Positions 271-19,322 of a stretch of 20,299 nucleotides of DNA are shown here, one piece after another. Source of the stretch: a virus; the IMG/VR virus record IMGVR_UViG_3300017963_000852, positions 1 through 20,299 of that record; one strand, written 5' to 3'. Every line of letters starts with the position of its first letter. The first letter of the stretch is position 1. The notes beneath the pieces were generated by a model. That model saw only the letters and a list, made by a program, of their open reading frames with translations. It ran no database searches and was not told the DNA's origin. Position numbers and translations under genes: made by a program.

Positions 271-1122
271 ATGAGTGAAGAAGCGGCATTAACGAAAAAG
301 ATGAACAAGAAGCAGAAGATGCACAACATCGAGGAGGTGTATCTTGGTGGCGCCACCTATGACGAGCGGCGCCTCTGGGATGAGATCGATTACGCGATCG
401 TCTCAATCCAGGACAACTATTACAAGATGGGCTTGAAATTTCTGGCCATCAAGGAGATGAAAGGTCACGGCGACTTCAAGAATGAAATTCAAAGGCGCTA
501 TGCGGACAAAGAGATCCTCTCTTATCGCACCATCGCCAAAACCATGCAGGTGGCGAAGTTTTTCCTCGACAACCCCAAGCTGACCAAGGCCCAGGGCTTC
601 AAGCAACTCTCCAAAGGCAAGCTCCTGGCCCTGGCGTCGGCCACCGAGGACGACGTGGACGAGGACGCCGGCACGGTGTTCGGCCTCACCCTCGAGGACG
701 CGCGCGCGCTCAAGATCAAGGACCTCCAGGCCAGGATCCAGGCCCAGGACAAGAAGCTCGAAAAGCAGGCGGCCGAGATTGACAAAGGCCGCGAGCAGCT
801 TCTGACCGCACGCGAGGAAGTGGACAAGCTCAAGAACAAGCATCGGGTCGTGGGGCAGGCCGTGGACGAGCTGCACGCGGAGGCGCGCCTGGAGGAGAAC
901 ACGAAAATAATCGAAGGCTGCCTGATAGAGATAGCGAACACCTGGGAGAAGGACAACGTCACTCCCCGCGTGGCGGCCCTTATCAGGGCGGCCGCGACCC
1001 AGGTCTTTCACTTGACGAGTCACTACACCGAGGTTATCCGGTGCAAGCTGGACGACTCGGCTGTTCCGAGCGACGAGGCCCTGGACGAGATCCTGGAGCA
1101 GGCGGGCATCATAACTAAATGA
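271..1122 (+). CDS. DUF3102-like DNA-associated coiled-coil protein
   Basis: The product has 283 residues. The ATG at 271 is preceded by an ACCGGAGG ribosome binding site. Residues about 35-100 (DEIDYAIVSIQDNYYKMGLK, HGDFKNEIQRRY and SYRTIAKTMQVAKFF) match the pattern of DUF3102-type proteins, in which a helical domain is followed by an HTH-like 'sYRTIakym' helix. Residues about 140-200 are a heptad-rich coiled coil (repeated K/E/Q with hydrophobic spacing). The C-terminus is helical and acidic. Its stop overlaps the transposase start (ATGA at 1119-1122), so the two are translationally coupled. Such proteins commonly lie just upstream of transposases in Mu-like prophages; a DNA-binding or accessory transposition role is inferred from that position. 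No mosaic element interrupts this gene. Confidence 0.6.
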   Translation: MSEEAALTKKMNKKQKMHNIEEVYLGGATYDERRLWDEIDYAIVSIQDNYYKMGLKFLAIKEMKGHGDFKNEIQRRYADKEILSYRTIAKTMQVAKFFLDNPKLTKAQGFKQLSKGKLLALASATEDDVDEDAGTVFGLTLEDARALKIKDLQARIQAQDKKLEKQAAEIDKGREQLLTAREEVDKLKNKHRVVGQAVDELHAEARLEENTKIIEGCLIEIANTWEKDNVTPRVAALIRAAATQVFHLTSHYTEVIRCKLDDSAVPSDEALDEILEQAGIITK

Positions 1123-2879
1123 ATCAAACAAAGGTACAAGCGGCCGCGAAGGCCATGGGATTGTGCAAGACGAGCGCTGAACGCCGAGCGGTAGTGGAGC
1201 GGCTCATGGCCTTGTGGAGTTGTAGCGAACGCACTGTCTATCGTCTGGCCATTAAGGGCGGCTGGGAATCCGGCCGCCAGGCCAGGCGGGACAAAGGCGA
1301 GCGCAACCTCGAGACCGAAGAAATAAAAAAGGTGGTCGGTTTTCTTGCCGGCTCCAAGAGAAAATCGAAAAGCATGATCATGGACACTGAGACAGCGCTC
1401 GGGATAGCGGTCGATTCCGGCCTGGTCGCGAACTCTGTCTCAACGGCCACGGTCAACCGATACCTCCGCCAGGATCGGCTCTCCAAAACCGACATGACCC
1501 GCGATATGGACGGCGGCCCTCACATCAACCTGGTATCTCTCTATTCTAACCACTGCCACCAATTCGACATCACGAATTGCACCCAGTATTTTTTCGACGA
1601 TAAAGGGCTCGGGCGGCGCGATATGAAAAACGAGTTTTATTTGGGCAAGCCCGAGAACTTCGCAAAAATCAAGCGGCACCTGCTCCGGTTCGTCTTAATA
1701 GACCACTATTCCGGGGCCTTCTACATCCAGTATTTTTACACATCCGGCGAGCGCTCGATCGACGTGGCCCACTTCTTAATAGAAGCCTGGGGAGGTCGCA
1801 ACCGCGACCTCGCCAGGTATCCATTCCGCGGATTACCCGAGATTTTCTACGCTGACAAGGGAAGCGCGGCCAACTCGGAGATGGTGTCAAACCTGCTTGA
1901 TTCCCTGGGCGTGGACAAAAAGACCCACGAGGCCGGGAATCCCAGGGCCAAGGGTATGGTCGAGGGCTTCATGCGGATTTGGGAGACCAAGTTCGAGTCC
2001 AGGCTGTCCGTGCAGGCCGCCCAGGACCTGGATCAGCTTAACAAGGCCGCGCTGGACTTCTGCGCGTTTTACAACGGCTCGAAGATCCTCACCCGCTCGG
2101 ACCTGGGCCAGACCCGCAGCCAGTTGTGGTCGAGCATTCCCCGCGACAAGCTCAGGCTTTTACCACCGGACGAGGTGTGCAGAGAGCTCTTACACACGCG
2201 GCCCGAGGAGCGCCTGGTCAAAGGCAACCTTTGCATCAACTACAAGGGCGCCGAGTTCCGGGTGTCCGACCCGAACCTCGAGGGCAGGAAGGTCTCGGTC
2301 ACCATCAACCCGTACCGCTGGACCGCTGACGAGGCGGGCCGCCGGGCCGTGATCGTCACCTGGATCGACGCCTGGGGCGACCGGTGTCAACTCGAGGCCC
2401 TCGAGGTGATGAGAGACCCGGTCAGCGGCTTCAGGATTGGCGAGAGGACCGCGGTGATTGGCGAAGAGTGGAACCGACACCCCGACTCGGCGAGCCGCCG
2501 AGGACTCAAAGCCGCGGGGATAATTTTGGAGACACAGCCGAATCCCCGCCGCGACCACGGAAGCGCGGAGGGGGCCGAGGACGACCAGGACCTCCGGGTC
2601 TTTGGCAACCACGCTGAAAAAATCGGCGAGCTTTACCACTTATCGCCACCTGGCGAACAGATCGAAATAAGCGACGGGATAACGCCCACAGCCGTCTCGA
2701 CCACATACGCCCTGGGCCTCCTGCGGGAAGCGCTCCAGAGGCCGCTCGAGCCTCATGAGGTTTTCGTGGTGGAGAACACACCGGACATTACCAGGGAGAT
2801 GATTGAACACCTGGCCGAGAAATTTCTAACCCTAGAAATTTCCGGATCGCAAAGCGAGGAGGACAACAATGCCTCTTGA
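1119..2879 (+). CDS. MuA-like DDE transposase (phage integrase/replicative transposition)
   Basis: The 586-residue product should cut and join phage ends during integration and replicative transposition. Residues about 15-50 include an HTH-like segment (WSCSERTVYRLAIKGGW). The catalytic RNase H-fold core spans about 145-300: first Asp in HQFDITN (D150), second in FYADKGSA (D246), and Glu in KGMVEGFMRIWE (E282). The second and third residues are 35 apart, as in DD35E enzymes. A beta-barrel-like region follows at about 350-450 (Mu-transpos_C type). Positions 2511-2568 (about residues 465-483) are an inverted-orientation mosaic element read in frame, lying between the core and the acidic C-terminal part that in Mu contacts MuB. 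The length is a little under the Mu protein's 663. It starts by ATGA overlap with the preceding gene, and its TGA stop is formed by the first bases of an element hairpin. Confidence 0.93.
   Translation: MNQTKVQAAAKAMGLCKTSAERRAVVERLMALWSCSERTVYRLAIKGGWESGRQARRDKGERNLETEEIKKVVGFLAGSKRKSKSMIMDTETALGIAVDSGLVANSVSTATVNRYLRQDRLSKTDMTRDMDGGPHINLVSLYSNHCHQFDITNCTQYFFDDKGLGRRDMKNEFYLGKPENFAKIKRHLLRFVLIDHYSGAFYIQYFYTSGERSIDVAHFLIEAWGGRNRDLARYPFRGLPEIFYADKGSAANSEMVSNLLDSLGVDKKTHEAGNPRAKGMVEGFMRIWETKFESRLSVQAAQDLDQLNKAALDFCAFYNGSKILTRSDLGQTRSQLWSSIPRDKLRLLPPDEVCRELLHTRPEERLVKGNLCINYKGAEFRVSDPNLEGRKVSVTINPYRWTADEAGRRAVIVTWIDAWGDRCQLEALEVMRDPVSGFRIGERTAVIGEEWNRHPDSASRRGLKAAGIILETQPNPRRDHGSAEGAEDDQDLRVFGNHAEKIGELYHLSPPGEQIEISDGITPTAVSTTYALGLLREALQRPLEPHEVFVVENTPDITREMIEHLAEKFLTLEISGSQSEEDNNAS
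2511..2568 (-). repeat. Mosaic element, inverse orientation, in frame inside the transposase gene
   Basis: Begins GCCGCGGGGATAAT and continues GACACAGCCGAATCCCCGCC, then GCGACCACGG and AGCGCGG. This is the same block order as the inverse copies at 8670-8720, 5313-5378 and 18833-18885. It contains no stop in the transposase frame and encodes roughly AAGIILETQPNPRRDHGSA. No hairpin remains at either side. Confidence 0.8.
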
Positions 2880-4494
2880 AGGTTTAGAACCTTCACAACA
2901 AAGCCGCGAGGCCGAGCGGGAGGCTGCTCACGACTTGGGCGCCGCGCGTTATCAGTCGCGGCGGGGATCAGGCGGGGTCGCGGACACTGACCGCGGCGTT
3001 GTCGTCAAGGGTTCAACCCTTGGAAAAAAGTCGCGCAGAAACTATCAGAAACAGCACCGGGACAAGCTCCAGAGCGAATCTGTGGCGGCGGCGGAGCGCT
3101 CGGCCGCGCCGTGGTCGGACGAGGAGATCGAGTATTTGTTGAGGTCCCTTTCCCAGGGGATCCCGAACATGGTGATAGCGAACAAGCTCAAGCGCACCTA
3201 TGCAGCGGTGCGGAGCATGGCGTCGAAGGAAAGGTTATTTCGAAGCCGCGAGGTCGGACGCGCGGTAGAAGCTGAACAGGAGCCGCGACCCAGGCATCGC
3301 GGCGTTGTCGTGGAGGGTTCAACCCTCCAAGCGGAGGAGGAGATGAAAAAGGAAAAGGATGAAAAGGACGGACCGTTGTTTTTGAAGGAGATCCTTCGAA
3401 AACACCAGATCAGTCAGCGGGAATTGTGCCGGGCGGTCAAGGTGCCGCCCTCTAACCTGTCGCTGTTTATTAACGGCGGCGAGATGACCGGAAAGGACGA
3501 GCGGGCCGGCTTGAAAGCCAGGATAATAACGGCCCTCAAGGATCGGGGCGTGAGCGGCGCGGAGCTGTTCAGCGCGTTCCGAAAAACGTCGGCGCCGGCC
3601 GCCGCGGTGGCGGGCCTGGAGCCCGAGGACGATGAATGGGAGGAGGCTGAAATGATTACGACAGAGGCGTTGGATTTTTTCAATTTAATTAACGATCCCT
3701 TCGAACGGGGCGCCGTCCGCTCGGCGGCTGACTTATACAAGTCGGCGGCGAGCCGCCGGGCGGCCGCGGCCCTTAAATCGGCCATCGACCGCAGAGGCTT
3801 TGTCGCCCTGATCGGCGAGGTGGGCACAGGCAAGACCTTGCTCATGACCGAGCTTGAGGGCGGCCTGGGCGCCAAATACAGGGTCATAAGACCCACCACC
3901 ATGGATAAGGACAGGCTCACGGTGAGCTCGCTTAGAGAGGCCATCATCATGGACCTGAAAGCCGCGCGGGACGATTACAGCGAGCGGGTTCGGCATAGCC
4001 GCGAGGCGCGCGATCGGCAGATTCGGGACCTGCTCAAATTACACGACGACGACGGGATCGCGGTGCTGCTGGTGATCGAGGAAGCCCACCGGCTGCCGAT
4101 GTCCACCTTGCGAGCTCTGAAAGTGCTGCACGAGATTCAGTTCGGGTACTCGGCCCCGCTGGCGATCGTGCTGATCGGTCAGCCCGAGCTCAGAGACGTG
4201 TTCGAGGATCTTCGAATTCGCGAGGTGACGCAACGGTGCCGCAAGATCGAACTGCCCAAGTTGCGCAAGCCCGAGATCCCCACTTACGTGAAGTTTAAGT
4301 TCAGCCGGGCGAACGAGGGAGTGTCGAAAGTATTCTCCGACAACGGCCTGGCGGCTGTGGCGGACTTCCTGCGCGCGGGCGCGTCGCCGCTCAAGGTCAA
4401 CAACTTTGTTACGAGAGCCATTAACTACGCCCAGGAGTTGGGCAAGCGAAAGGTAGACGCGGACCTCATCTATCAGCTCGTCGAGAGGAGGTGA
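2869..4494 (+). CDS. MuB-like AAA+ ATPase, transposition target selector, with SANT/Myb-like N-terminal extension
   Basis: The open frame of 541 residues starts at ATG 2869 behind a GAGGAGGACAACA site. Residues about 3-52 are translated mosaic element (2877-3022). Residues about 75-123 (PWSDEEIEYLLRSLSQGI...) resemble a SANT/Myb-like HTH. Residues about 125-153 are a second in-frame element (3241-3328). The classic MuB part could begin at the internal ATG 3343, behind GCGGAGGAGGAG, giving 383 residues (Mu B has 312). It comprises a lambda-repressor-like HTH (FLKEILRKHQISQRELCRAV), a Walker A GEVGTGKT at about residue 316 of the long form, and a Walker B LLVIEEAH near 400, then a C-terminal helical region. 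MuB ATPases bind target DNA and activate MuA. The Myb-like segment has no other in-frame start nearby, so it is either expressed through the translated element or not at all. The stop overlaps a GTG at 4491. Confidence 0.88.
   Translation: MPLEGLEPSQQSREAEREAAHDLGAARYQSRRGSGGVADTDRGVVVKGSTLGKKSRRNYQKQHRDKLQSESVAAAERSAAPWSDEEIEYLLRSLSQGIPNMVIANKLKRTYAAVRSMASKERLFRSREVGRAVEAEQEPRPRHRGVVVEGSTLQAEEEMKKEKDEKDGPLFLKEILRKHQISQRELCRAVKVPPSNLSLFINGGEMTGKDERAGLKARIITALKDRGVSGAELFSAFRKTSAPAAAVAGLEPEDDEWEEAEMITTEALDFFNLINDPFERGAVRSAADLYKSAASRRAAAALKSAIDRRGFVALIGEVGTGKTLLMTELEGGLGAKYRVIRPTTMDKDRLTVSSLREAIIMDLKAARDDYSERVRHSREARDRQIRDLLKLHDDDGIAVLLVIEEAHRLPMSTLRALKVLHEIQFGYSAPLAIVLIGQPELRDVFEDLRIREVTQRCRKIELPKLRKPEIPTYVKFKFSRANEGVSKVFSDNGLAAVADFLRAGASPLKVNNFVTRAINYAQELGKRKVDADLIYQLVERR
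2877..3022 (+). repeat. Complete mosaic element, forward, translated in frame in the MuB ORF
   Basis: Left hairpin 2878-2894 (GAAGGT-TTAGA-ACCTTC), then CACAACAAAGCCGCG, GAGCGGGAGGCTGC, TTGGGCGCCGCGCGTTATCA, GTCGCGGCGGGGATCAGG, GTCGCGGACACTGACCGC, GGCGTTGTCGTC and right hairpin 3007-3021 (AAGGG-TTCAA-CCCTT). At about 146 bp it is one of the best full copies. The transposase stop codon TGA (2877-2879) uses the first two hairpin bases. In the MuB frame most other forward copies read TGA or TGT at the GATGAGG/GATGTGG block; this copy reads TCA. Confidence 0.88.
3241..3328 (+). repeat. Composite mosaic element before the classic MuB start, in frame
   Basis: Starts CGAAGCCGCGAGG, then ACGCGCGGTAGAAGCTGA (also found at 8718-8735 and, inverted, at 4574-4591 and 19292-19309), then CCAGGCATCGCGGCGTTGTC and hairpin 3312-3328 (GGAGGG-TTCAA-CCCTCC). 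It is immediately followed by the internal ribosome binding site for ATG 3343. Confidence 0.8.
3330..3345 (+). promoter_or_regulatory. Internal ribosome binding site and alternative MuB start
   Basis: AGCGGAGGAGGAG directly precedes ATG 3343, in frame with the longer MuB reading frame. Starting here removes both translated elements and the SANT-like segment, leaving a protein of normal MuB architecture (HTH plus AAA+). Two products from one frame are possible. Confidence 0.55.
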
Positions 4495-4496
4495 GG

Positions 4497-4712
4497 GTGA
4501 GCGACCTTCGGCGCAACGCCGCGGAAGCTCGGAGCTTCACCCAACGCCGCGATGCCTGGTGGGCGGCGCCGGCTCAGCTTTTACCGCGCGTCCTGTGGTC
4601 GCGGCGCGGATGTGGCTGTATCGCGGACGGCAAGCGCGGCTATGTTGTGGAGGTTTCAAACCTCCAGTCCTCGGAAAACCAAGTCCCCGCCGCGACCACG
4701 GAATCGCGGGAA
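4497..4712 (+). repeat. Long composite mosaic element between MuB and Gam genes
   Basis: Contains a left-end remnant (GACCTTCGGCGCAACGCCGC), hairpin 4524-4538 (GAAGC-TCGGA-GCTTC), CCCAACGCCGCGATGCCTGG, GGCTCAGCTTTTACCGCGCG, GGTCGCGGCGCGGATGTGG, CGCGGCTATGTTGTGG, hairpin 4649-4665 (GGAGGT-TTCAA-ACCTCC), then an inverse fragment AGTCCCCGCCGCGACCACGG. The whole stretch is open in the frame starting GTG 4491/4497 and ending TAG 4718, giving a potential peptide of about 75 residues made only of element sequence. No conserved protein is recognised in it. Confidence 0.85.
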
Positions 4713-5189: not shown

Positions 5190-5214
5190 CAGGCCCCGCG
5201 ACATGCGGGGCCTG
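5190..5214. other. GC-rich 10-bp stem-loop after Gam
   Basis: Perfect arms CAGGCCCCGC (5190-5199) and GCGGGGCCTG (5205-5214) around loop GACAT, starting 10 bases after the Gam stop. There is no T-run, so it is a weak candidate for intrinsic termination. It could be an RNA-stabilising hairpin or a diverged member of the hairpins seen elsewhere; the 5-nt loop agrees with those, but the stem is longer. Confidence 0.5.
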
Positions 5215-5220
5215 GTGGGA

Positions 5221-5296
5221 AAAGCGGAGGCGTGGAGACGCTGGCGTGAGCAAAGGGGACGCTCAAAAAGTGGTACCCTCCACGTTTCCGCCTTTG
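5221..5296 (+). other. Structured intergenic segment (possible structured RNA)
   Basis: Positions 5221-5238 and 5279-5296 are complementary over 18 bases with one mismatch and two G-U pairs when read as RNA. The loop holds a second small hairpin (TGAGC 5248-5252 with GCTCA 5262-5266). None of the mosaic-element blocks occur here. It sits between Gam and the hairpin that opens the next element. No known RNA family is recognised and no gene is seen. Confidence 0.35.
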
Positions 5297-5386
5297 GGGC
5301 TAGCAGCCCCGCCCAAAGCCGCGGGCCATATCCGCGACACAACAGAGCCCGCGCCGCGACCACGAGGACTCGCGGCGCCCAAATAA
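5297..5386 (-). repeat. Mosaic element, inverse orientation
   Basis: Hairpin 5297-5311 (GGGGC-TAGCA-GCCCC), then CCAAAGCCGCGGGCCATATC, CGCGACACAACAGAGC, CGCGCCGCGACCACGAGG and CTCGCGGCGCCCAAATAA. It ends a few bases before AAAGGAGATGAACC, the ribosome binding site of the next gene. Confidence 0.82.
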
Positions 5387-5402
5387 CGAAAGGAGATGAA
5401 CC

Positions 5403-5981
5403 ATGAATCGCGGCGTTGAAAAAATGACGGTTGACATCAAAGGCGTTTTTCTCGTCTTGATCGTGGCGGCGATCCTCACGGGAAAAGGAATTTTTATAGT
5501 TCATCAGAGATCGGTCGAGCGCTGCAAGGCCCACGCCGCGACCATGGACGCGTGGCGCCCAAACGATAAGCCGTCGGTGCCCAGGCATCGCGGCTATGCG
5601 CCGAGGGCCGCTCGCCCTCAGGGGGGTGAAGGAAATGAGCGAGAAAACAACAAAGAAGTGCAAGGGCTGCGGTCGCCAGAGAGTGATCTATCGTCACGGC
5701 CTGTGCCGGCTCTGCTGGAAGAAGAGGCAACGCCCTCGGACCTGCCCGATATGCGACGAGGAGAAGGCCATCTACAGAAGCGGCATGTGTTATTTGTGCT
5801 ATCAGGATTGGCGCTCGACAATCCGGAAAAACGGCTCCAGCCGACGCGTGGTTCTGCCGCCGAAAATCTTCAAGGCCCTCGAACCGCACCTGAAAGCAAG
5901 AAGCTGCGAGCTGCAGCAAATGGTGATCGAGATCGTCGATCTTTACCTGGCGGACTCGAGAAGATCGGCAAGGCGAGATGA
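5403..5981 (+). CDS. Small single-pass membrane protein; frame runs on through an element and overlaps the next gene
   Basis: ATG 5403 follows an excellent AAAGGAGATGAACC site. Residues about 15-34 (FLVLIVAAILTGKGIFIV) are a clear membrane segment after a short charged N-terminus, suggesting a one-pass inner-membrane protein. The first codons (MNRGVE) and those of the small terminase (MTRGVE) both derive from element end sequence CGCGGCGTTGAAA. From about residue 43 the frame reads through an inverse element (5531-5620) and then, with no stop, along a different frame of the zinc ribbon gene to TAG/TGA at 5981. The tail is Arg/Pro/Gly-rich and looks non-native; the functional protein is probably the first 40 or so residues with a tail acquired by loss of its stop. 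No family is recognised. Confidence 0.45.
   Translation: MNRGVEKMTVDIKGVFLVLIVAAILTGKGIFIVHQRSVERCKAHAATMDAWRPNDKPSVPRHRGYAPRAARPQGGEGNERENNKEVQGLRSPESDLSSRPVPALLEEEATPSDLPDMRRGEGHLQKRHVLFVLSGLALDNPEKRLQPTRGSAAENLQGPRTAPESKKLRAAANGDRDRRSLPGGLEKIGKAR
5531..5620 (-). repeat. Mosaic element, inverse orientation (right part)
   Basis: CCACGCCGCGACCATGG, ACGCGTGGCGCCCAAACGAT, CCCAGGCATCGCGGCTATGC and hairpin 5603-5619 (GAGGGC-CGCTC-GCCCTC). The next ribosome binding site (GGTGAAGGAA) follows within 15 bases. It is read in frame by the small membrane protein gene. Confidence 0.85.
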
Positions 5982-6060: not shown

Positions 6061-6247
6061 AGCGCTCGCAATTCTGAACGCTAACTTGCTGTTGATCCGG
6101 ATTGAAATGGAAGGAATGATCGCCGAGAACAGAGCGAGGGAGATCGAGGATAAGTGTCCAGCCTATGGAGAAGAGGCGTTTATGGACCTCAATCAGAAGA
6201 TCAAAAGTGCGTTTGAACAATATTCGTACGACATCGGAGCGGGATGA
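6053..6247 (+). CDS. Small helical protein of unknown function
   Basis: The 64-residue product starts at ATG 6053 with GGGAGGCAAGA upstream; in-frame codons further upstream are element sequence. The predicted protein is acidic and largely alpha-helical (EALAILNANLLLIRIEMEG and EAFMDLNQKIKSAFEQYSYD). There is no membrane segment, cysteine cluster or known motif beyond this. It overlaps the zinc ribbon gene by eight bases and the TSCPD gene by ATGA, so the three form a tightly coupled early block. Probably real given the spacing and lack of element sequence; the role is unknown. Confidence 0.55.
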   Translation: MDEALAILNANLLLIRIEMEGMIAENRAREIEDKCPAYGEEAFMDLNQKIKSAFEQYSYDIGAG

Positions 6248-6723
6248 AAAAAAGACCAAATCTTTTACGGGGCGAGACTCGTCGAGTTCGTATGGGTTGC
6301 GGGAACGTGTATCTCACCATCAATTTTTCCAATGCCGCGGACAAGGCTCTCGATACAGCCGAACAGAGCCCCGCGACCGATAACGCGCGGCGCTCAACCA
6401 GGCAGATTTTAAAAGACCATGCGTCGCGGCTTCGAAAAAACCCGATAGAGATTTTTATGAGGCTTGGAAAAAGCGGCGCGTGTCAGTCTTCCCTGCTCCA
6501 AGGCCTGGCCAGAGTGGCCTCCCTGGCGCTCCAGGCGGGCGTCCCGCCCGAGGCGCTGGCAAAGACGCTGGGTGGCATAGCCTGCACAGAAGCGCCACCA
6601 GGTGAGCCGGGAGAAACGTTTAAATCGTGTCTCGACTTTTTTTCCTTTCAACTCCGCGAGGCCTCGCGGGAGGCCAAGCATCGCGGTGTTGCGGCGGGGG
6701 CTGCCAGCCCCCAGGAGGAGTAA
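6244..6723 (+). CDS. TSCPD-domain protein with in-frame element insertion
   Basis: The product has 159 residues. The domain resembles the TSCPD module known from the C-terminus of B12-dependent ribonucleotide reductases and from stand-alone proteins: CGNVYLTINFS (residues 19-29), NPIEIFMRLGKSGACQSSL (about 66-84), then LARVASLALQAGVPPEALAK, GIAC and SCLDFF, the last being the variant of the family's terminal SCPD block. Between the first strand and NPIEIF, where the family normally has only a few residues, about 35 residues are encoded by an almost whole inverse element (6333-6436). The C-terminal residues from about LREASRE onward come from another element (6652-6712). The role in a phage is unknown; a metal or nucleotide-linked function is inferred from the family. 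It starts by ATGA overlap and its TAA overlaps the next ATG by one base. Confidence 0.75.
   Translation: MKKRPNLLRGETRRVRMGCGNVYLTINFSNAADKALDTAEQSPATDNARRSTRQILKDHASRLRKNPIEIFMRLGKSGACQSSLLQGLARVASLALQAGVPPEALAKTLGGIACTEAPPGEPGETFKSCLDFFSFQLREASREAKHRGVAAGAASPQEE
6333..6436 (-). repeat. Mosaic element, inverse, in frame inside the TSCPD gene
   Basis: GCCGCGGACAAGG, CGATACAGCCGAACAGAGC, CCCGCGACCGATAACGCGCG, CGCTCAACCAGG, then CCATGCGTCGCGGCTTCG follow the order of inverse copies (GCCGCGG, GACACAGCC, CCGCGACC, ACGCGCGGCGC, GGCATCGCGGC). Hairpins are lost. At about 104 bp, with no stop in the reading frame, it encodes roughly 35 residues in a loop of the domain. Confidence 0.72.
6652..6712 (-). 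repeat. Mosaic element fragment with hairpin at the TSCPD 3' end
   Basis: CTCCGCGAGGCCTCGCGGG, AAGCATCGCGGTGTTGCGG and hairpin 6696-6712 (GGGGGC-TGCCA-GCCCCC). It encodes the C-terminus of the TSCPD protein and is directly followed by AGGAGGAGTAATG, the ribosome binding site and start of the next gene. Confidence 0.8.
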
Positions 6724-7061: not shown

Positions 7062-7393
7062 GCGAACATGAAATAAAGCGGATCCTGGAAATTATCGAGA
7101 CGTCCTGCCGGGGACGTAAGCAGGCCATCTCCGCGCGCGTGCTCGCGCGCCAGGCCGAAGTGGACGAGCGCACAGCTAGAGACCTGGTGGCGGAGCTGGT
7201 GGTCGTACACAAAAAGCCGATCGGCAGTCATCCGGCGTGCGGGTTCTTCTGGATCGTGGATCGCGAGGATAAAGACCTGGCAAGCCGAAACCTGAGATCC
7301 CGAGGCGTGAAGATCCTGCAAAGATTGGCGGCCATCAACAAGACCGACGTGAAAGAAGAAGCGGTGCAGCTAACGCTTTTTCCCAAGAGCTGA
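7058..7393 (+). CDS. Winged-helix DNA-binding protein
   Basis: The 111-residue product starts by ATGA overlap. Residues about 5-55 fit a winged-helix fold: helix IKRILEIIETSC, then ISARVLARQAEVDERTARDL as the helix-turn-helix, and VVVHKKPIGSHPACGFFWIV as the wing. Similar small proteins occur in the early regions of many Mu-like prophages, where they may act as regulators or replication helpers; the role here is inferred. The C-terminal half is basic and helical (LRSRGVKILQRLAAI) and ends VQLTLFPKS. The TGA stop uses the first two bases (GA) of an element hairpin at 7392-7408, so the element marks the exact end of the gene. Confidence 0.68.
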   Translation: MSEHEIKRILEIIETSCRGRKQAISARVLARQAEVDERTARDLVAELVVVHKKPIGSHPACGFFWIVDREDKDLASRNLRSRGVKILQRLAAINKTDVKEEAVQLTLFPKS

Positions 7394-7602
7394 AGGTTTG
7401 AAACCTTCACAACGTCGCCGCGAGGATCGGCGGGAGACAATGCAGGATTTGGGCGCCGCGCGTTATAGGTCGCGGCGGGGATGAGGCTGTGTCGAAGGCG
7501 GAGATCGCGGCATTGAAAAAACCGCGCGTTGTAGGTCGCGGCGGGGATGAGGCGGTGTCGCGGACATTAACCGCGGCTACGTCGTGAAGGGTTCAACCCT
7601 TC
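7392..7602 (+). repeat. Mosaic element, forward, with internal tandem duplication
   Basis: Hairpin 7392-7408 (GAAGGT-TTGAA-ACCTTC), CACAACGTCGCCGCGAGG, ATTTGGGCGCCGCGCGTTAT, GGTCGCGGCGGGGATGAGG, then a second copy of the CCGCGCGTT...GATGAGG block starting 66 bases later (7456 and 7522), GTCGCGGACATTAACCGCGG and hairpin 7586-7602 (GAAGGG-TTCAA-CCCTTC). The ribosome binding site AAGGAG follows at once. No gene is seen in this 220-base gap. Confidence 0.92.
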
Positions 7603-7613
7603 AAGGAGAAAAA

Positions 7614-8162
7614 ATGACCGCAACCAGAAAACGAAAACAGACCGATGCCAGAACGGCGGATCTTAAAAAAATCTGGGTGGGGGCCAGGGCCCTGGGCCTG
7701 GACAAGGACCTCTTGTACGATCTGGCGGAGTCGCTCCTGGAGCGCTCCATCCACGACCCCGTTAAAGGCCGCAGATCGATCGGAAACCTGAACAAGATCG
7801 AGCGATGGACGATTATTAAAGAACTGTCAAGTAAGGGCGCTTTTATTTTTCGGAAGCTTGAGGGCGAGCGGCCCTCGACGCAACGCCGCGCTCCGGATCC
7901 GCGACACAGCCGAACCCGCGCCGCGACCACGAGGGCCGGGAAGGGGACGGACATCGTCTCGGCGAAGCAGCAGGCCTTTATCATCGATCTGTGGGAGCGC
8001 CTCGAGGCTTACGAGCCCAACGCAAGCGCGCCCGCGTGGAGAGAGGCCTTTACTTACAGAATCATTTCAGTAAAATATCCGCAGAAGAAGTGGGAAGCGG
8101 CAAGACTGATCGAGGCTTTGAAGAAACGAATTTCTCAATGCCGCCAAGGCTTGAAGCCTTGA
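7614..8162 (+). CDS. Mu gp16-like (DUF1018) regulator with element inserted between its halves
   Basis: The product has 182 residues from ATG 7614 with CAAGGAGAAAAA upstream; the in-frame MKGSTLQGEK further up is hairpin sequence and is rejected as a start. The N-terminal half (KKIWVGARALGLDKDLLYDL and LNKIERWTIIKELSS) and the C-terminal half (SAKQQAFIIDLWERLEAYEP, WREAFTYRIISVKYPQKKWE and ARLIEALKKR) match the two helical segments of Mu gp16-type proteins of early regions. Between them residues about 83-111 (EGERPSTQRRAPDPRHSRTR and so on) are encoded by an inverse element (7860-7945). The last residues (CRQGLKP) come from the next element, whose hairpin supplies the stop. Normal family length is about 130-150 residues, so the excess equals the insertion. 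The function in Mu is not firmly known. Confidence 0.75.
   Translation: MTATRKRKQTDARTADLKKIWVGARALGLDKDLLYDLAESLLERSIHDPVKGRRSIGNLNKIERWTIIKELSSKGAFIFRKLEGERPSTQRRAPDPRHSRTRAATTRAGKGTDIVSAKQQAFIIDLWERLEAYEPNASAPAWREAFTYRIISVKYPQKKWEAARLIEALKKRISQCRQGLKP
7860..7945 (-). repeat. Mosaic element, inverse, in frame inside the gp16-like gene
   Basis: Hairpin 7860-7876 (GAGGGC-GAGCG-GCCCTC), GACGCAACGCCGCGCTCC, CCGCGACACAGCCGAACC, CGCGCCGCGACCACGAGG. The loop GAGCG is the exact reverse complement of the CGCTC loop in right-end hairpins at 5603, 9766 and 12874, as expected for the opposite orientation. Confidence 0.88.
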
Positions 8163-8233
8163 CCACATAGCCGCGATGCCCGGCGGGTGGCTGCTCACAA
8201 CTTGGGCGCCGCGCGTTATAGGTCCCGGCGTTG
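8145..8233 (+). repeat. Mosaic element, forward (left half)
   Basis: Hairpin 8145-8161 (CAAGGC-TTGAA-GCCTTG), ACCACATAGCCGCGATGCCC, GGCGGGTGGCTGC, ACTTGGGCGCCGCGCGTTAT, AGGTCCCGGCGTTGAAAT. The hairpin encodes the last residues and TGA of the gp16-like gene. Confidence 0.87.
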
Positions 8234-8255: not shown

Positions 8256-8489
8256 ATGATGTCGAATAACGAAGGAACAACGGCCACGTGCCTGTGTTGC
8301 GGCGGTCCCGTGCCCGACGACTGGGAAGCGCGGAAACTGTATTTGTTCACCTTTGCCGGCTCTGTAAAAATGCCGATCTGTCAGGAGTGCAAAGAGAACC
8401 ACTGCGTAAGCGTAATGGGTCCCGGGCGGATGTTTTGCGCTTGCGATCTTCATCCTCTCGAATCGAAAATTAACGCGCGGCTCCCGTGA
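8256..8489 (+). CDS. Small cysteine-rich zinc-binding protein
   Basis: The 77-residue product can start at ATG 8256 or 8259; AAGGAAG lies 6-9 bases upstream of either, so the start is not decided. The cysteine pattern is CLCC near residue 12, then CQEC near 47, NHC, and CAC near 66, with a late His, which suggests one or two structural zinc sites of the ribbon/knuckle type. The spacing does not match a family I know. It ends NARLP, where AACGCGCGGCTCCCG may be a fragment of element sequence. It closes the early block, just before the promoter-bearing gap. A regulatory nucleic-acid-binding role is plausible but unproven. Confidence 0.55.
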   Translation: MMSNNEGTTATCLCCGGPVPDDWEARKLYLFTFAGSVKMPICQECKENHCVSVMGPGRMFCACDLHPLESKINARLP

Positions 8490-8524
8490 CAAAACGCCGC
8501 CCGCCAGGCATCGCGGCGTTGAAA
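8490..8524 (-). repeat. Mosaic element fragment, inverse
   Basis: ACGCCGCCCGCCAGGCATCG followed by CGGCGTTGAAATAA is the reverse complement of the GCCGCGATGCCTGGCGGG block. It lies just upstream of the promoter in the 8490-8821 gap; between 8558 and 8640 I see leader sequence without a gene. Confidence 0.75.
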
Positions 8525-8528
8525 TAAC

Positions 8529-8557: not shown

Positions 8558-8645
8558 AATAATAAGGAACCTTTTCATCGTTTCCTTTTAAGGCGCTCGC
8601 GGCAAAAGCCTCTGGCCGCGGCGCCCGCAGATTGAGTCCCCTTTT

Positions 8646-8810
8646 GAAGGCTAGCAGCCTTCGCCGCGACGCCGCGGTTATAGTCCCCAACACAGCTTAA
8701 TCCCCGCCGCGACCTAAAACGCGCGGTAGAAGCTGAGTGAAACGAAGTCCCGCCCTGGCGGGATCCCCGCAAATTAACCCAGTCCCCGCCGCGACCACAA
8801 GATGTGTGGA
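8646..8810 (-). repeat. Mosaic element, inverse, plus a second inverse fragment
   Basis: Hairpin 8646-8662 (GAAGGC-TAGCA-GCCTTC), GCCGCGACGCCGCGGTTAT, CCCAACACAGCTTAATCC, CCGCCGCGACCTAAAACGCG, GGTAGAAGCTGA; then the perfect palindrome TCCCGCC-CT-GGCGGGA (8748-8763) and a repeated AGTCCCCGCCGCGACCAC. It fills the leader between the promoter and the lysozyme gene. Confidence 0.85.
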
Positions 8811-8821
8811 AGGGGCGACAG

Positions 8822-9583
8822 ATGAGCGAAGCACGCACTCACATCAAGTACGATCTTCCCTTTATCGACAAGTATCGCGATCTGATCATATCCATTGCCG
8901 ACTCTTACGAGTTCGACCCCGCGCTGATCGCGGCCATTATGTCGCGCGAGTCGGGTGGCGGCCGGCACCTGGGCAAGGGCTCGTGTCCTCCGCTCACAGG
9001 AGATCGCGGGCACGGCCGCGGACTCATGCAGATCGACGACCGATACCATAAGGCCTTTATATCTATTCCCGACCTGTGGAAACAACCCTCCGCAAATATT
9101 TCCTATGGCTGCCACATCCTCAAAGAAAATCTCATCCACTTTATCGATAAATATTCCGGCGAAAGTCTTGCCGCCAATTTACGAGCGGCCACGGCCGCAT
9201 ATAACACCGGCACAGTGCGCGTGGGTCGAGCAATCGACCTGGGCAAAGACCCGGACGCGTACACCACCGGCCGGGACTACTCCGCCGACGTGTTCGAGCG
9301 GGCCTCGCTGCTCAGGGCTAAAGGATACCTGGGAAAAATGCGCAGTAATTTCGATATCGAGAACCAGGACGCGCGGCGCCCAAACGAGGAGCGGGAACGA
9401 AATAAGTGGATTCAGGAATCCCTTAACAAAATATTGGACCTGGGCCTTCGGGTAGACGGCATTTACGGGCCGGCCACGCGCTCGACAGTGATGAAGTTCC
9501 AGGCGCTGTACGGCCTGACGGTGGACGGCGTTTGCGGCCCGAGAACGGAAGCAAAGATTAAGGAGGTCCTTAATGGATCCTAG
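8822..9583 (+). CDS. Endolysin: lytic transglycosylase/lysozyme with C-terminal peptidoglycan-binding domain
   Basis: The product has 253 residues from ATG 8822, after GGAAGGGGCGACAG; a longer start (8804) is less likely. The N-terminal domain (about 12-165) fits the goose-type lysozyme/SLT fold: ALIAAIMSRESGGG with catalytic Glu43, GHGRGLMQID at about 63-72, and ATAAYNTGTVRVGRA as the AYN-type motif. It should cleave glycan strands of the cell wall at lysis. Residues about 195-253 (LNKILDLGLRVDGIYGPATR, VMKFQALYGLTVDGVCGP) form a PG_binding_1 domain. No signal peptide is seen, so export would need a holin, possibly the protein at 10384. The linker between domains (about 182-190, QDARRPNEER) is a short in-frame element fragment. 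The end overlaps the next start by 11 bases. Confidence 0.9.
   Translation: MSEARTHIKYDLPFIDKYRDLIISIADSYEFDPALIAAIMSRESGGGRHLGKGSCPPLTGDRGHGRGLMQIDDRYHKAFISIPDLWKQPSANISYGCHILKENLIHFIDKYSGESLAANLRAATAAYNTGTVRVGRAIDLGKDPDAYTTGRDYSADVFERASLLRAKGYLGKMRSNFDIENQDARRPNEERERNKWIQESLNKILDLGLRVDGIYGPATRSTVMKFQALYGLTVDGVCGPRTEAKIKEVLNGS
9368..9391 (-). repeat. Mosaic element fragment in the endolysin linker
   Basis: ACGCGCGGCGCCCAAACGAG and the following four bases are identical over 24 bases to positions within the element before the small terminase gene (about 10749-10775). It is the inverse form of TTTGGGCGCCGCGCGT and encodes part of the inter-domain linker. Confidence 0.7.
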
Positions 9584-9767
9584 CGACTTCATCTGGGAGT
9601 GTGAAGAGAAACTCCGAGAGATTATCGAGGCCCTTATGGACCTGATCGAGAGTTCGGGTGATCACGGCCTTTTAGAAAAGGCGCTTCTGGTAATCAGTCC
9701 GGGAACGTCAACGCGCGGCGCCCAAATCCCGCCAAGCCGGGACCCAGGCATCGCGGCTATGCGGTGA
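9573..9767 (+). CDS. Small acidic helical protein with element-derived tail
   Basis: The 64-residue product starts at ATG 9573, preceded by the strong AAGGAGGTCCTTA inside the endolysin gene, so coupled expression is likely. Residues 1-43 are acidic and helical (DFIWECEEKLREIIEALMDL). Residues about 46-64 (GTSTRGAQIPPSRDPGIAAM) are translated mosaic element, and the stop TGA lies in the bases just before the hairpin. The native protein was presumably shorter or ended differently. There is no membrane segment. Its place in the lysis block suggests an accessory there, but no function can be assigned. Confidence 0.55.
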   Translation: MDPSDFIWECEEKLREIIEALMDLIESSGDHGLLEKALLVISPGTSTRGAQIPPSRDPGIAAMR

Positions 9768-9782
9768 GGGCCGCTCGCCCAT
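9710..9782 (-). repeat. Mosaic element, inverse orientation (right part)
   Basis: AACGCGCGGCGCCCAAATCC, ACCCAGGCATCGCGGCTATG, then hairpin 9766-9782 (GAGGGC-CGCTC-GCCCAT, one lost pair). It is near-identical in layout to 5531-5620. The next gene's site GAAGGGGCAG follows. Confidence 0.85.
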
Positions 9783-9797: not shown

Positions 9798-10031
9798 ATG
9801 TCACAACTAAAAAACATCGAGAACTGGCTGAAAAATTTTAACGCGCCGCTGGACAAAGACCAGGCGGTCGAGGTCCTGCGCGAGCACGGCCTCGATTACA
9901 CGGCCGATCTGATCGATATGATCGACCTCGACTATCTATATAACGTCATGCTGGAGGCCCAGGAAAAGCAGGACGTGATCCTGGCTGTGGGCTATAAGCT
10001 GCTGAGATGGCTCCAAGGCGACGAGGCTTGA
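9798..10031 (+). CDS. Hypothetical helical protein, 77 residues
   Basis: ATG 9798 is preceded by GAAGGGGCAGAAAAA. The product is acidic and almost wholly alpha-helical: IENWLKNFNAPLDKDQAVEV, LREHGLDYTADLIDMIDLDY, and VILAVGYKLLRWLQ near the end. The last helix is moderately hydrophobic but too polar to be a confident membrane segment. No family is recognised. The final codons and the TGA stop are part of an element hairpin: the stop lies within the TTGAA loop at 10028-10032, and the closing GDEA residues come from the stem. It is the third gene of the lysis block. Confidence 0.55.
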   Translation: MSQLKNIENWLKNFNAPLDKDQAVEVLREHGLDYTADLIDMIDLDYLYNVMLEAQEKQDVILAVGYKLLRWLQGDEA

Positions 10032-10128
10032 AGCCTCGACCACAACGCCGCGCGTTATAGGTCGCGGCGGGGATGAGGCGGAATCGCGGACAGAGAGCGC
10101 GGCTATGCGGCGAGGGCTGCTAGCCCTT
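10022..10128 (+). repeat. Mosaic element, forward, with internal deletion
   Basis: Hairpin 10022-10038 (CGAGGC-TTGAA-GCCTCG), CCACAACGCCGCGCGTTATA, GGTCGCGGCGGGGATGAGG, ATCGCGGACAGAGAGCGCGG, and right hairpin 10112-10128 (GAGGGC-TGCTA-GCCCTT). The GATGCCTGGCGGG...GGGCGCC stretch is missing between two GCCGCG copies, consistent with a recombination deletion. AAAGGAGAAG follows for the next gene. Confidence 0.9.
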
Positions 10129-10142
10129 AAAGGAGAAGAAGA

Positions 10143-10383: not shown

Positions 10384-10611
10384 ATGAACGATCAGGAGTT
10401 CCGCGACCACGTGGTGGGCACGCTTGCGCGGATCGAGACCAGGCTCAAGGTGATCGGCGACGATCAGCGAGACGGCGAAGCCGCCCACGAGAACCTGCGG
10501 CAAAAGGTCGAGGCGCAAGGGCGGGACATCGCCAGGCTGCAAGTTAAAAGCGGCGTGATCGGGGCCTTGAGCGGGGCGATCACAGCGGCGATCGGGAGCC
10601 TCATCAAGTGA
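10384..10611 (+). CDS. Holin/XhlA-like small protein with coiled coil and C-terminal membrane segment
   Basis: The 75-residue product starts at ATG 10384 with GAGGGGC upstream. Residues 1-50 are charged and heptad-like (GTLARIETRLKVIGDDQRDG and ENLRQKVEAQGRDIARLQVK), followed by SGVIGALSGAITAAIGSLIK, a small-residue-rich membrane helix ending in Lys. This cytoplasmic-coil-plus-C-terminal-anchor layout is that of XhlA-type and related lysis proteins found beside endolysins. It could form, or help form, the membrane lesion that releases the signal-less endolysin encoded at 8822. Alternatives are a membrane-bound structural accessory. The TGA stop shares GA with an element hairpin at 10610. Confidence 0.6.
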   Translation: MNDQEFRDHVVGTLARIETRLKVIGDDQRDGEAAHENLRQKVEAQGRDIARLQVKSGVIGALSGAITAAIGSLIK

Positions 10612-10775
10612 AGCTCGGAGCTTCACCCGGCGCCGCGATGCCTGGCGGGCGGCCTTTTACAATTTGGGCGCCACGCGTTTTAGGTCGCGGCGGGGACAAG
10701 GACGCATCGCGGACATTGACCGCGGCTATGAAAAAACCGCGACCTGTAACGCGCGGCGCCCAAACGAGGAGCTGA
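10610..10775 (+). repeat. Mosaic element, forward, with added inverse tail
   Basis: Hairpin 10610-10624 (GAAGC-TCGGA-GCTTC), ACCCGGCGCCGCGATGCCTG, GGCGGCCTTTTACAATTTGG, GCGCCACGCGTTTTAGGTCG, ATCGCGGACATTGACCGCGG, CTATGAAAAAACCGCGACC, then inverse ACGCGCGGCGCCCAAACGAG. It fills the 173-base gap before the small terminase; no gene is seen there. Confidence 0.9.
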
Positions 10776-10784
10776 CAACAAACA

Positions 10785-11342
10785 ATGACACGCGGCGTTG
10801 AAAATTACGGGGCGCGGTTTCGAGCGGAGGCCAAGGGCATTTTCCTGGATGTTCGGACCCTGGCCGGCGTGCAAAAGGAGCTCAAACGCCGCAAGTACAA
10901 AAAGGTCCCGGACCTGAAAACCCTGACCAGGTGGCGCGATCAGGAAGAGTGGATGCGGGAGCTGCGGGAGAGAGACGCGGCCATAAACATCGAGCTGGAT
11001 CCCGACGCCTCGGACATCGAGAAGATATATCAGAGAGCTCGAGCGTCACGCGAAACGCTTGAGGAAGATATGAAAAAACTCCGCAAAAAGGGCATGAAGG
11101 CCCAGGAGCTAACTCAGCTCCAGCACGCTTTCAACCGCGCGCTTTACACCGAGGCCCAGATCCTCAAGGTGAAGCTCGAAGCCGAGAGGATGGAAAAGCA
11201 GGCCACACCGACAGAGGTGATTTTCGCGGCCCTGATGGATCATCCGAGGTTCGGGCCTCTGCTCAGGAACAAGGTCGCGCGAAGTGAACTCGAGCAGCTC
11301 ATTGCCGAAAAACAGCTGGAGACATTAAAGCAGGGGATTTGA
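10785..11342 (+). CDS. Terminase small subunit-like protein (Mu gp27/DUF3486-DUF1804 type)
   Basis: The product has 185 residues from ATG 10785. Residues about 22-60 (VRTLAGVQKELKRRKYKKVP, DLKTLTRWRDQEEWMRELRE) carry an HTH of the kind that terminase small subunits use to bind packaging sites. Residues 85-150 are a long basic/acidic coiled coil suited to oligomer formation. The C-terminal helices (ARSELEQLIAEKQLETLKQG) may contact the large subunit. The first codons MTRGVE derive from element end sequence, as in the membrane protein at 5403, so a fragment of the element forms the N-terminus. The gene abuts the large terminase with a one-base gap and no element between them. The small-subunit call rests mainly on position and HTH. 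Confidence 0.65.
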   Translation: MTRGVENYGARFRAEAKGIFLDVRTLAGVQKELKRRKYKKVPDLKTLTRWRDQEEWMRELRERDAAINIELDPDASDIEKIYQRARASRETLEEDMKKLRKKGMKAQELTQLQHAFNRALYTEAQILKVKLEAERMEKQATPTEVIFAALMDHPRFGPLLRNKVARSELEQLIAEKQLETLKQGI

Positions 11343-11343
11343 T

Positions 11344-12750
11344 TTGAATACGGCCGTAAAAATACTCGGGGACTTTAAGGCCCAGTTAAAAAAACTCGAC
11401 CAGGCCGACGCGCGCGCTCGCGCCGAGCGGGACTTTGCGTATTTTTGCGAGACCTTTACGGCGTATTCTTTGCGATCATTTCACGAAACCTGGCTGCGGG
11501 AGATTCGGAACGAGCAGATCGCCCTGCTGCTCGCGCCCCGCGGCTCGTCCAAGTCCACCACCCTGACCATCAACCGGGTGGCGTGGCTGGCCATAAAAAA
11601 TCCCGATCTCAGGATCCTGATCGTCTCCGCCACCGGGTTCATGGCCCGGAGACTCATGCGCGAGATTCGATCGCTGCTTATGTCCGAGCCGGTGCGCGAG
11701 ACCTGGGGCGACCTCAAGGGCGACAAATGGACGGACAACGAGATCAACCTGGCCACCCGCACGCGCGCGCACAAGGAAGCCACTATCACGGCCCTGGGCG
11801 CGGGCGAGTCCATCATCTCGGGTCATTACGACCTGATCGTGGGTGACGACATGGTCAATGAGGAGTGGTGTCGATCGGCTCTCCTCAGAGATAAGATATT
11901 CGACTGGCTGCGATTCTCACTTTTGCCCACGCTCGAGCCGGAAGGGCAGCTGATTATCCTGGGCACCCGCTACCATTGGGACGACCTTTACGGCCGTTTG
12001 ATCGACTTGAAAAAGTTCCGCGTGTCCATCAAGAAAATAATCGCCAAAGCCATCCAGGACGACGGGAGCTCGTTCTGGCCGGAGAGGTTCCCGATCGAGG
12101 CTCTCGAGAAGCTCCGGAAAATGCTCGGCACGATCATATTTAACGCCCAGTACCAAAACGACGCCACGGCCATGCTCGGCAAAATCTTCAAGCCCGACTG
12201 GATCAAACGCTATAAGCGCCTGCCGGACGGAGTAATCAAAAAGGCCCAGGGAGTGGACCTGGCCATCGGCGAGAAAAAAACAAACGACTATTTCGCGCAC
12301 GTGACTATCGGCGTGGACAAACAAAAGAACATCTACGTGCTGGACGCGTACCGCGATCGAATCACGTTCGACGCGCAGCACGCGGCAGTCGAGCGGAAAT
12401 ACGAGGAGCACCACAAGACTAGCAGACCCGTTGTGTGCGTGGCCATCGAGTCGAACGCCTACCAGGAGGCTTTGGCGCAACGGATCCGGATGAACACCAT
12501 GGTGCCGGTCCGCTCGATTCACCAGACCCGCGACAAGGTCACCAGGGCGCAGTGGTTTCAGCCGCACATGGAAAACGGCAAAGTGTTTTTTCCGTATCAA
12601 GGCACGGACGATCTCGAAATGGAGATCCTCACGTTCGACGAGGGCGCCCACGACGATCTCCTGGACGCCCTGATCCTGGCGGCTATGGCGGCGGGCCTGA
12701 TCAAAAAACGCGGACGCGCGCGGGCGCGTTCCAAACCAAAAGGCTTCTGA
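11344..12750 (+). CDS. Terminase large subunit (DNA-packaging ATPase/nuclease)
   Basis: The 468-residue product begins with TTG 11344; AGGGG lies about eight bases upstream, and TTGAATACG follows directly on the small-subunit stop. The ATPase domain has Walker A APRGSSKST (residues 64-72), a conserved RILIVSATG coupling-like strand near 90, and Walker B YDLIVGDDM at 162-170, followed by LIILGTRYHWDDLY. The RNase H-like nuclease domain opens with QGVDLAIGEKKTNDYF (about 300) and includes VAIESNAYQEAL and the acidic end AHDDLLDALILAA. It should pump phage DNA into proheads and cut it. In Mu the equivalent protein packages by headful; the same is likely but unproven. The C-terminus is very basic (RGRARARSKPKGF). 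The TGA shares bases with an element hairpin. Confidence 0.9.
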   Translation: MNTAVKILGDFKAQLKKLDQADARARAERDFAYFCETFTAYSLRSFHETWLREIRNEQIALLLAPRGSSKSTTLTINRVAWLAIKNPDLRILIVSATGFMARRLMREIRSLLMSEPVRETWGDLKGDKWTDNEINLATRTRAHKEATITALGAGESIISGHYDLIVGDDMVNEEWCRSALLRDKIFDWLRFSLLPTLEPEGQLIILGTRYHWDDLYGRLIDLKKFRVSIKKIIAKAIQDDGSSFWPERFPIEALEKLRKMLGTIIFNAQYQNDATAMLGKIFKPDWIKRYKRLPDGVIKKAQGVDLAIGEKKTNDYFAHVTIGVDKQKNIYVLDAYRDRITFDAQHAAVERKYEEHHKTSRPVVCVAIESNAYQEALAQRIRMNTMVPVRSIHQTRDKVTRAQWFQPHMENGKVFFPYQGTDDLEMEILTFDEGAHDDLLDALILAAMAAGLIKKRGRARARSKPKGF

Positions 12751-12890
12751 ATGCTTGAAGCATTCATCACAAAGCCGCGATGCCTGGCCGGTGGTAAAGC
12801 CGGACGGGCGCCGCGCGTTGTAGGTCGCGGCGGGGACGTGGAAGTGTCGCGGACATTGGCGCGGCGTTGCGGTGAGGGCCGCTCGCCCTC
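12749..12890 (+). repeat. Complete mosaic element, forward
   Basis: Hairpin 12749-12765 (GAATGC-TTGAA-GCATTC), TCACAAAGCCGCGATGCCTG, GACGGGCGCCGCGCGTTGTA, GGTCGCGGCGGGGACGTGG, GTCGCGGACATTGGCGCGGC, GTTGCGGTG and hairpin 12874-12890 (GAGGGC-CGCTC-GCCCTC). The two end hairpins have entirely different stems and loops. AAAGGATT follows for the portal gene. Confidence 0.92.
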
Positions 12891-12905
12891 AAAGGATTGA
12901 ATAAG

Positions 12906-14657: not shown

Positions 14658-14687
14658 GTTTGCAAGATGATTAACCACAAAAGCAAC

Positions 14688-14758
14688 AGGTCGCGGCGGG
14701 GATGTGGCTGTATCGAGGACAAAGACCGCGGCGTTGTTGTGAAGGGTTCACCCCATAA
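14688..14758 (+). repeat. Mosaic element, forward (right half), degraded hairpin
   Basis: GGTCGCGGCGGGGATGTGG, TGTATCGAGGACAAAGACC, CGCGGCGTTGTTGTG and the decayed hairpin GAAGGG-TTCAC-CCCATA (14742-14758). The left end is lost, leaving the portal stop at 14655-14657 without a hairpin. Confidence 0.8.
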
Positions 14759-14767
14759 GGTGAATAC

Positions 14768-15664: not shown

Positions 15665-15879
15665 TGGAAAAAGGGTGTGGATACGCGCCTGAAACGCTTT
15701 CGAGCGCGTTAAACACGTTTATGAACATTCAGAGGGCCAATCCCGCTGGAGCGGGAGGCCGAAATGTGGACGCGCGGAGCCCAAATGACGGATTGACGAC
15801 CGTCGGGCATCGCGGCGTTGTGCTGAAAGCTTCAAGCTTTCAATCCCGAGGGAGATCCTCGAGAGGGAGAAAAAAATGA
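15661..15879 (+). CDS. Possible small gene read through a mosaic element, coupled at both ends
   Basis: The 72-residue frame overlaps the minor head gene by ATGA at its start and the scaffold start by ATGA at its end, an arrangement typical of coupled translation. Residues 1-28 (MMEKGCGYAPETLSSALNTF and on) are unique. From about residue 27 it reads an inverse element (15741-15841), giving GRNVDARSPNDG and GHRGVVLKASSFQSRG. No recognised motif is present. It may be a genuine small protein extended by element insertion, or a frame kept open by chance; a ribosome passing through would keep the scaffold gene coupled. Confidence 0.4.
   Translation: MMEKGCGYAPETLSSALNTFMNIQRANPAGAGGRNVDARSPNDGLTTVGHRGVVLKASSFQSRGRSSRGRKK
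15741..15841 (-). repeat. Mosaic element, inverse, with hairpin
   Basis: Short palindrome TCCCGCTGGAGCGGGA (15741-15756), then TGGACGCGCGGAGCCCAAAT, GTCGGGCATCGCGGCGTTGT, GCTG and hairpin 15825-15841 (GAAAGC-TTCAA-GCTTTC). The scaffold gene's GAGAGGGAG site follows about 25 bases later. Confidence 0.86.
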
Positions 15880-16604: not shown

Positions 16605-16688
16605 GGAGGTTCGAAACTTCCACAACAACGCCGCGATGCCTGGCGGGAGACAGTCCATAATTTGGGCGCCACGCGTCGGAAATCGCAG
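16605..16688 (+). repeat. Mosaic element, forward (left half)
   Basis: Hairpin 16605-16621 (GGAGGT-TCGAA-ACTTCC, one pair being G-T/G-U), CACAACAACGCCGCGATGCC, TGGCGGGAGACAGTCC, ATTTGGGCGCCACGCGTCGG, TCGCAGCAGGG. The GGGAG at its very end is the ribosome binding site of the major capsid gene. Confidence 0.88.
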
Positions 16689-18052: not shown

Positions 18053-18150
18053 GCCGCGAGGCTGTGGAGGGAGGTATAACGTAATTGAGAGCCGCGCGTC
18101 CATGGTCGGGACACCCTGACAGGCTGCATCGCGGACCGTGGACGCGGCTT
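18053..18150 (+). repeat. Degraded mosaic element after the capsid gene
   Basis: GCCGCGAGGCTGTGGAGGG, GAGCCGCGCGTCCATGGTCG, AGGCTGCATCGCGGACCGTG, GACGCGGCTTT keep the block order of a forward copy (GCCGCG, GCCGCGCGT..GGTCG, GCGGAC, CGCGGC) without hairpins. It is the most worn copy and fills the 116-base gap. Confidence 0.6.
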
Positions 18151-18168
18151 TAAAAAACAAGGAGCGAG

Positions 18169-18720: not shown

Positions 18721-18885
18721 AAGCTTGAAGCTTTCAGCACAACGCCGCGATGCCTGGCGGGCGGCCTTTTGTAATTTGGGCGCCGCGCGTCCTCGTAGTC
18801 GCGGCGGAAGCTCGGAGCTTCACCCAACGCCGCGGTCACAGTCCGCGACACAGCCCAGTCCACGCCGCGACCTATAACGCGCGGA
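18719..18885 (+). repeat. Composite mosaic element: forward left half joined to inverse left half
   Basis: Hairpin 18719-18735 (GAAAGC-TTGAA-GCTTTC), GCACAACGCCGCGATGCCTG, GGGCGGCCTTTTGTAATTTG, GCGCCGCGCGTCCTCGTAGT, then hairpin 18807-18821 (GAAGC-TCGGA-GCTTC), CACCCAACGCCGCGGTCAC, AGTCCGCGACACAGCCC, AGTCCACGCCGCGACCTATA, ACGCGCGG. Half-elements of opposite orientation meet here. It fills the 210-base gap with no gene. Confidence 0.92.
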
Positions 18886-18930
18886 TGAGGCTGGAAAAAA
18901 GACGAGGCCCAGGCCTCGCGGAGACGAAGA

Positions 18931-19239: not shown

Positions 19240-19322
19240 AGGCTTGAAGCCTTCACAACGACGCCGCGATGCCTGGCGGGTGACGCCGGCTCAGCTTCTA
19301 CCGCGCGTTATTGATCGCGGCA
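19238..19322 (+). repeat. Mosaic element, forward (left half), variant interior
   Basis: Hairpin 19238-19254 (GAAGGC-TTGAA-GCCTTC), ACAACGACGCCGCGATGCCT, GGCGGGTGACGCCGGCTCAG, CTTCTACCGCGCGTTATTGA, TCGCGGC. It shares the CGGCTCAGCTTYTACC interior with the copy at 4555-4595, replacing TTTGGGCGCC of other copies. AAAGGAAAG follows for the GTG-start gene. Confidence 0.9.

Follow-up and report, generated by a model that had tools for sequence, protein, structure and literature searches.

The window and its genes

The window, by which we mean the whole stretch of 20,299 nucleotides that was analysed, is a 20.3-kb viral contig of a Mu-like phage and represents a fragment only. Two of its genes have these coordinates:

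271-1122: phrog_1748 gene
1119-2879, plus strand: MuA-like DDE transposase of 586 aa, carrying a repeat element in frame (PHROG 310 transposase, E 4.1e-50)

Further genes include those for a MuB-like ATPase, Gam-like and GemA-like proteins, an endolysin, terminase, portal, minor head protein, scaffold and an SU10-type capsid protein. The transposase is 29-35% identical to phage transposases and 48-51% identical to its best relative, and its fold groups with TnsB, IstA and retroviral integrases. Residues D150, D246 and E282, which are of the catalytic acidic type and would presumably serve in catalysis, are all preserved here and do not vary among 52 homologues. Since open reading frames in this phage read through repeats, annotated gene starts and ends can be wrong; for example, ORF 2869-4494 joins a small HTH/SANT-like gene to the MuB-like gene across two elements. 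The MuB start is likely ATG 3342, because the MuB of a relative begins at the matching position.

A modular palindromic repeat family

A family of repeated palindromic sequences is present in the window. Full copies read hairpin-A-D-hairpin, half copies also occur, and an end module, E, caps either side of the element in opposite orientations, with 26 end matches; in one full copy module D is duplicated (7456-7580). The terminal hairpins covary, with 31 double-changed cells versus 8.7 in shuffles, and 89.8% of hairpin cells are paired versus 72.0% in shuffles, although this pairing may be slightly overstated, the hairpin register having been set by eye. The copies at junctions and gene ends are:

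2876-3022, plus strand: full element hairpin-A-D-hairpin, which supplies the transposase stop TGA 2877-2879
3254-3330, minus strand: element directly before the MuB-like gene
4492-4708, plus strand: composite element, MuB-like/Gam-like junction
5293-5419, minus strand: inverse half-element, junction after Gam
5522-5621, minus strand: element, junction
6645-6713, plus strand: element end, 3' end of ORF 6244
7390-7604, plus strand: full element, module D present twice, in the junction ahead of the GemA-like gene
8146-8226, plus strand: element, junction
8465-8525, minus strand: element, junction
8643-8726, minus strand: half-element with hairpin, junction (94.3 bits)
9701-9780, minus strand: element, junction
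10023-10130, plus strand: element, junction
10610-10800, plus strand: element, junction
12747-12893, plus strand: full element filling the terminase-portal junction
14677-14759, plus strand: half-element, portal/minor head protein junction
15762-15843, minus strand: element, junction
16605-16685, plus strand: element, scaffold-capsid junction
18051-18151, plus strand: degenerate element, junction
18717-18933, plus strand: element with the A module in forward orientation, then an inverse half-element, junction
19236-19318, plus strand: element, junction

Elements make up 73% of the non-coding DNA (2076/2838 nt), a count affected by gene ends that were set by hand, four genes having been ended before element-coded extensions. 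Every junction wider than 40 nt is occupied by an element except the first (the 72-nt gap before 271), and tight or overlapping junctions hold none; both the orientation and the module content of the elements differ between junctions. In several cases the stop codon of the upstream gene lies inside the terminal hairpin of the next element (2879, 7393, 8162, 10031, 12750, 18720 and 19239), the stop being the TGA of TGAAGGCTTGAAGCC, and many copies have stops in several frames. The sole wide junction that lacks an element holds a near-perfect palindrome at 202-238 (GCCAATAAGTGCCGA..TCGGCACCTATTGGC), perhaps an operator.

Inspection by eye of the flanks of the copy at 12747-12893, a single copy with no close empty site, revealed no target-site duplication. 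We also considered whether the terminal dinucleotides TG..CA point to mobilisation by MuA and discarded the idea, because the palindromic hairpin itself produces them and they differ from copy to copy. At 7505-7525, 10726-10740 and 18145-18160 module D has alternative, truncated ends in which GCGGC(A/T)..AAAAAAC replaces the hairpin, and these are perhaps recombination junctions.

Relatives and database searches

A search with the transposase only returned no close relatives; relatives were found through the terminase and a three-sequence alignment. Two of these loci, L013 and L014, share their gene order with the window and contain 0 copies of the repeat by either the profile or the covariance model, most genes of L014 being 37-59% identical to those of the window. 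The terminase-portal junction, which spans 146 nt in the window, has no gap at all in L014. A tandem 10-nt repeat, CCGAACAGAR, occurs in L013 at 940-1053.

No true copy was recovered from viral_contigs with four repeat-core patterns (six 17-mer matches were not extended by the models), nor from the 84,980 species genomes of genome_contigs with a 22-mer core (six isolated 22-mers were without the rest of the element). Core-pattern scans require exact cores, so that diverged relatives could escape them; the records closest to the window may also be missing from the collections. Searches of phages and plasmids (blastn) and of Rfam gave no match to the repeat.

The copy inside the transposase gene

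The segment in the transposase gene belongs to the repeat family dispersed through the phage and has the following features:

2484-2568, minus strand: inverse half-element (module D and terminal hairpin), residues 456-483, DSASRRGLKAAGIILETQPNPRRDHGSA (covariance model R1 and profile D)
2486-2502: terminal hairpin of this copy, perfect 7-bp stem and 3-nt loop, CTCGGCG-AGC-CGCCGAG

A sequence-only reading of this DNA had placed an inverse copy of about 19 residues, in frame, free of stops and lacking hairpins, at 2511-2568. The presence of a copy at this place is borne out by a leave-one-out profile of module D, built from 12 other aligned copies with the transposase copy excluded, which matches 2507-2567 on the minus strand with 26.4 bits (E 1.1e-7), whereas the highest background scores were 8.9 bits over 1.47 Mb from other loci and 11.7 bits over 6 Mb of codon strings drawn at random with the phage's codon usage. 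The true copy is longer than proposed, since covariance model R1, made from ten half-elements with the transposase copy left out, extends it to 2484-2568 over the full length of the model (1-83/83; 56.3 bits, E 1.4e-11; best background 14.3 bits in 419 kb). The copy consequently includes the terminal hairpin at 2486-2502, contrary to the description of it as hairpin-less. This hairpin contributes about 20 bits (the covariance score without it is 36.2), has the same spacing as in other copies and is fully paired despite a different stem sequence; among 86 homologues it is the only one with a stem longer than 5 bp at the site. The other half of a full element, namely module A and the second hairpin, is absent. 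The copy begins at a codon boundary, and its approximately 84 nt are read in frame as 28 codons without a stop.

In an AlphaFold2 model based on 52 sequences (mean pLDDT 80.8) the main low-confidence segment covers residues 465-493, where pLDDT falls below 50 and disorder is predicted, as had been expected for a disordered surface loop; disorder is likewise predicted for the corresponding linker in the closest relative, at 48% identity (low segment 505-536). Homology to phages in tblastn stops near residue 464. The linker is a net 12 residues longer in the window than in the nearest relative. Between fixed columns its length ranges from 29 to 54 residues in 85 homologues, so that the 48 residues of the window are not unusual; only the nearest relatives have a shorter linker. 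Since linker length varies in this way across the family, the clean gap that had been anticipated in relatives is not found.

Conserved residues at this place in homologues lacking the element had been named as evidence that would speak against insertion. None were found for 2511-2568 in the nearest relatives, but the outer 27 nt are partly a different matter: among homologues free of the element, 94% carry T or S at position 457 and 74% carry K at position 464, and both positions fall under the outer hairpin end of the copy. Because these residues are conserved without the element, the comparison suggests that the outer 27 nt are ancestral codons. Either the hairpin end lies over ancestral codons, by chance or through target choice, or the inserted codons match them by chance.

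Copies in other genes

Two further copies lie within open reading frames:

7858-7940, minus strand: half-element with hairpin, in frame in the GemA-like gene 7614-8162 (76 bits)
6320-6435, minus strand: degenerate copy that keeps the frame of ORF 6244-6723, on the N-terminal side of a TSCPD domain (23.6 bits by profile, 32.6 bits by covariance model)

The GemA copy is read in a codon phase different from that of the transposase copy, and we therefore rejected the idea of a conserved element-encoded peptide. The GemA of L014 is shorter at the element stretch, with no clean gap. A weak in-frame fragment (7.7 bits, near noise) is seen at 9357-9387 in the endolysin gene 8804-9583, between the SLT and peptidoglycan-binding domains.

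Origin of the copies

We consider the best explanation, with a probability of roughly 0.7, to be that a modular, non-autonomous family of palindromic repeats has spread through this Mu-like phage and that the transposase gene carries one of its inverse half copies, kept in frame. Copies of such a family, which is presumably mobile, would insert across the phage genome, perhaps mobilised in trans by a separate transposase, and those that break genes would be removed by selection. Most insertions would come to lie after the stop codon of one gene and ahead of the next ribosome-binding site, a position in which they should do little harm, whereas copies within genes would survive only in frame and in tolerant segments, such as the transposase linker that joins the catalytic/beta-barrel region to the C-terminal region, or the middle of GemA. 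The enzyme would remain active despite the insert, and some linker residues may have been lost or overwritten at insertion. Once translated, the insert makes up some 28 residues of predicted flexible linker and is most likely a passenger whose peptide has no specific function, given that the GemA copy uses a different frame. This would be a compact transposable phage whose junctions are filled by a repeat family that has also invaded, at predicted linkers, the phage's own transposase and a second Mu-type early gene. Should this be confirmed, it would provide a small system with countable copies in which to study element tolerance, the conversion of palindromes to protein and the mobiliser.

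Could the match in the transposase simply be a chance similarity of GC-rich coding sequence? The linker is indeed GC-rich and unconserved, and T/S457 and K464 look ancestral, yet codon-matched random sequence never approached the score of the copy and an independent hairpin stands at the right spacing, making this account extremely improbable. One may also consider the repeats as selected, functional intercistronic RNA modules that provide a stop codon, a hairpin and spacing to the next ribosome-binding site, rather than passengers, the coding copies being by-products or having an RNA role of their own. Such a function would fit the occupation of almost all open junctions, the stops provided by the terminal hairpin, the compensatory hairpin changes and the retention of a hairpin in both the transposase and the GemA copy. 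However, relatives with the same gene order do without the repeats, the junctions differ in orientation and module content, as a fixed regulatory part would not, copies inside genes have no intercistronic role, and templated correction between the arms could also produce the agreement of hairpin arms; on the whole we find this unlikely. Still more doubtful is a combined scenario in which the repeat is a phage-borne functional junction module, with stop codon and hairpin for operons, that stays structured even in coding sequence and is still spreading, perhaps mobilised by the phage's MuA-type transposase.

Where the family came from is another matter. Most palindromic families of bacteria, such as BOX, RPE, ERIC and REP, are chromosomal (PMC3049150, PMC10969869), and the repeats may belong to a family of the host chromosome that was acquired during prophage residence, the phage being one of many targets. 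The lack of true copies of the 22-mer core in the species genomes argues against this, although the host may be absent from that collection. We regard the matter as evenly balanced, and a host source is also compatible with the spread of a non-autonomous family through the phage that we favour.

Comparison with known repeats

Gene-invading palindromic repeats are known from Rickettsia and from a few other bacterial chromosomes. The Rickettsia palindromic elements (RPE) are short palindromic repeats that lie in frame in protein genes and are translated (PMC10969869), and the parallel to them drawn in the sequence-only reading holds for in-frame insertion with the reading frame kept open, as in the MuA and GemA copies. 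It fails for the conserved peptide: the present repeat has no conserved encoded peptide or frame, and is modular in build with covarying end hairpins. Unlike RPEs it resides in a transposable phage, including the phage's own transposase, with most copies intergenic. Since the conserved-peptide feature reported for RPEs is absent here, we do not file the repeat as an RPE; no match to the exact core pattern was obtained from Rickettsia in genome_contigs, and the comparison is otherwise by description. We judge the repeat to be a new, apparently undescribed family of the MITE/BOX/RPE kind.

BOX elements are modular, their end modules flanking an inner module that can be repeated; they have predicted stem-loops and can form or extend ORFs (PMC3049150). 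By described build the pneumococcal BOX is similar in its fixed end modules and variable number of inner modules (one copy here has two D modules), while the present repeat differs in being in a phage and at nearly all open junctions. MITEs have inverted ends (PMC10969869), and the repeat resembles MITEs and REPINs in being non-coding and multi-copy, with inverted ends and without its own transposase; unlike theirs, its ends form hairpins in which changes of stem sequence are compensated. Among phage repeats, the ESAS of cluster K mycobacteriophages carry inverted repeats and lie just upstream of genes (PMC3203893), and are thus similar in being inverted-repeat-bearing phage sequences that adjoin genes. 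ESAS are short sequences tied to the starts of some of the non-structural genes, and related phages conserve them, whereas the present repeat follows stop codons, occupies most junctions in both orientations, enters genes and is absent from relatives.

Two hairpins with 10-bp stems lie outside the family, one in the 3' part of the transposase gene (2819-2842) and the other after Gam (5190-5214).
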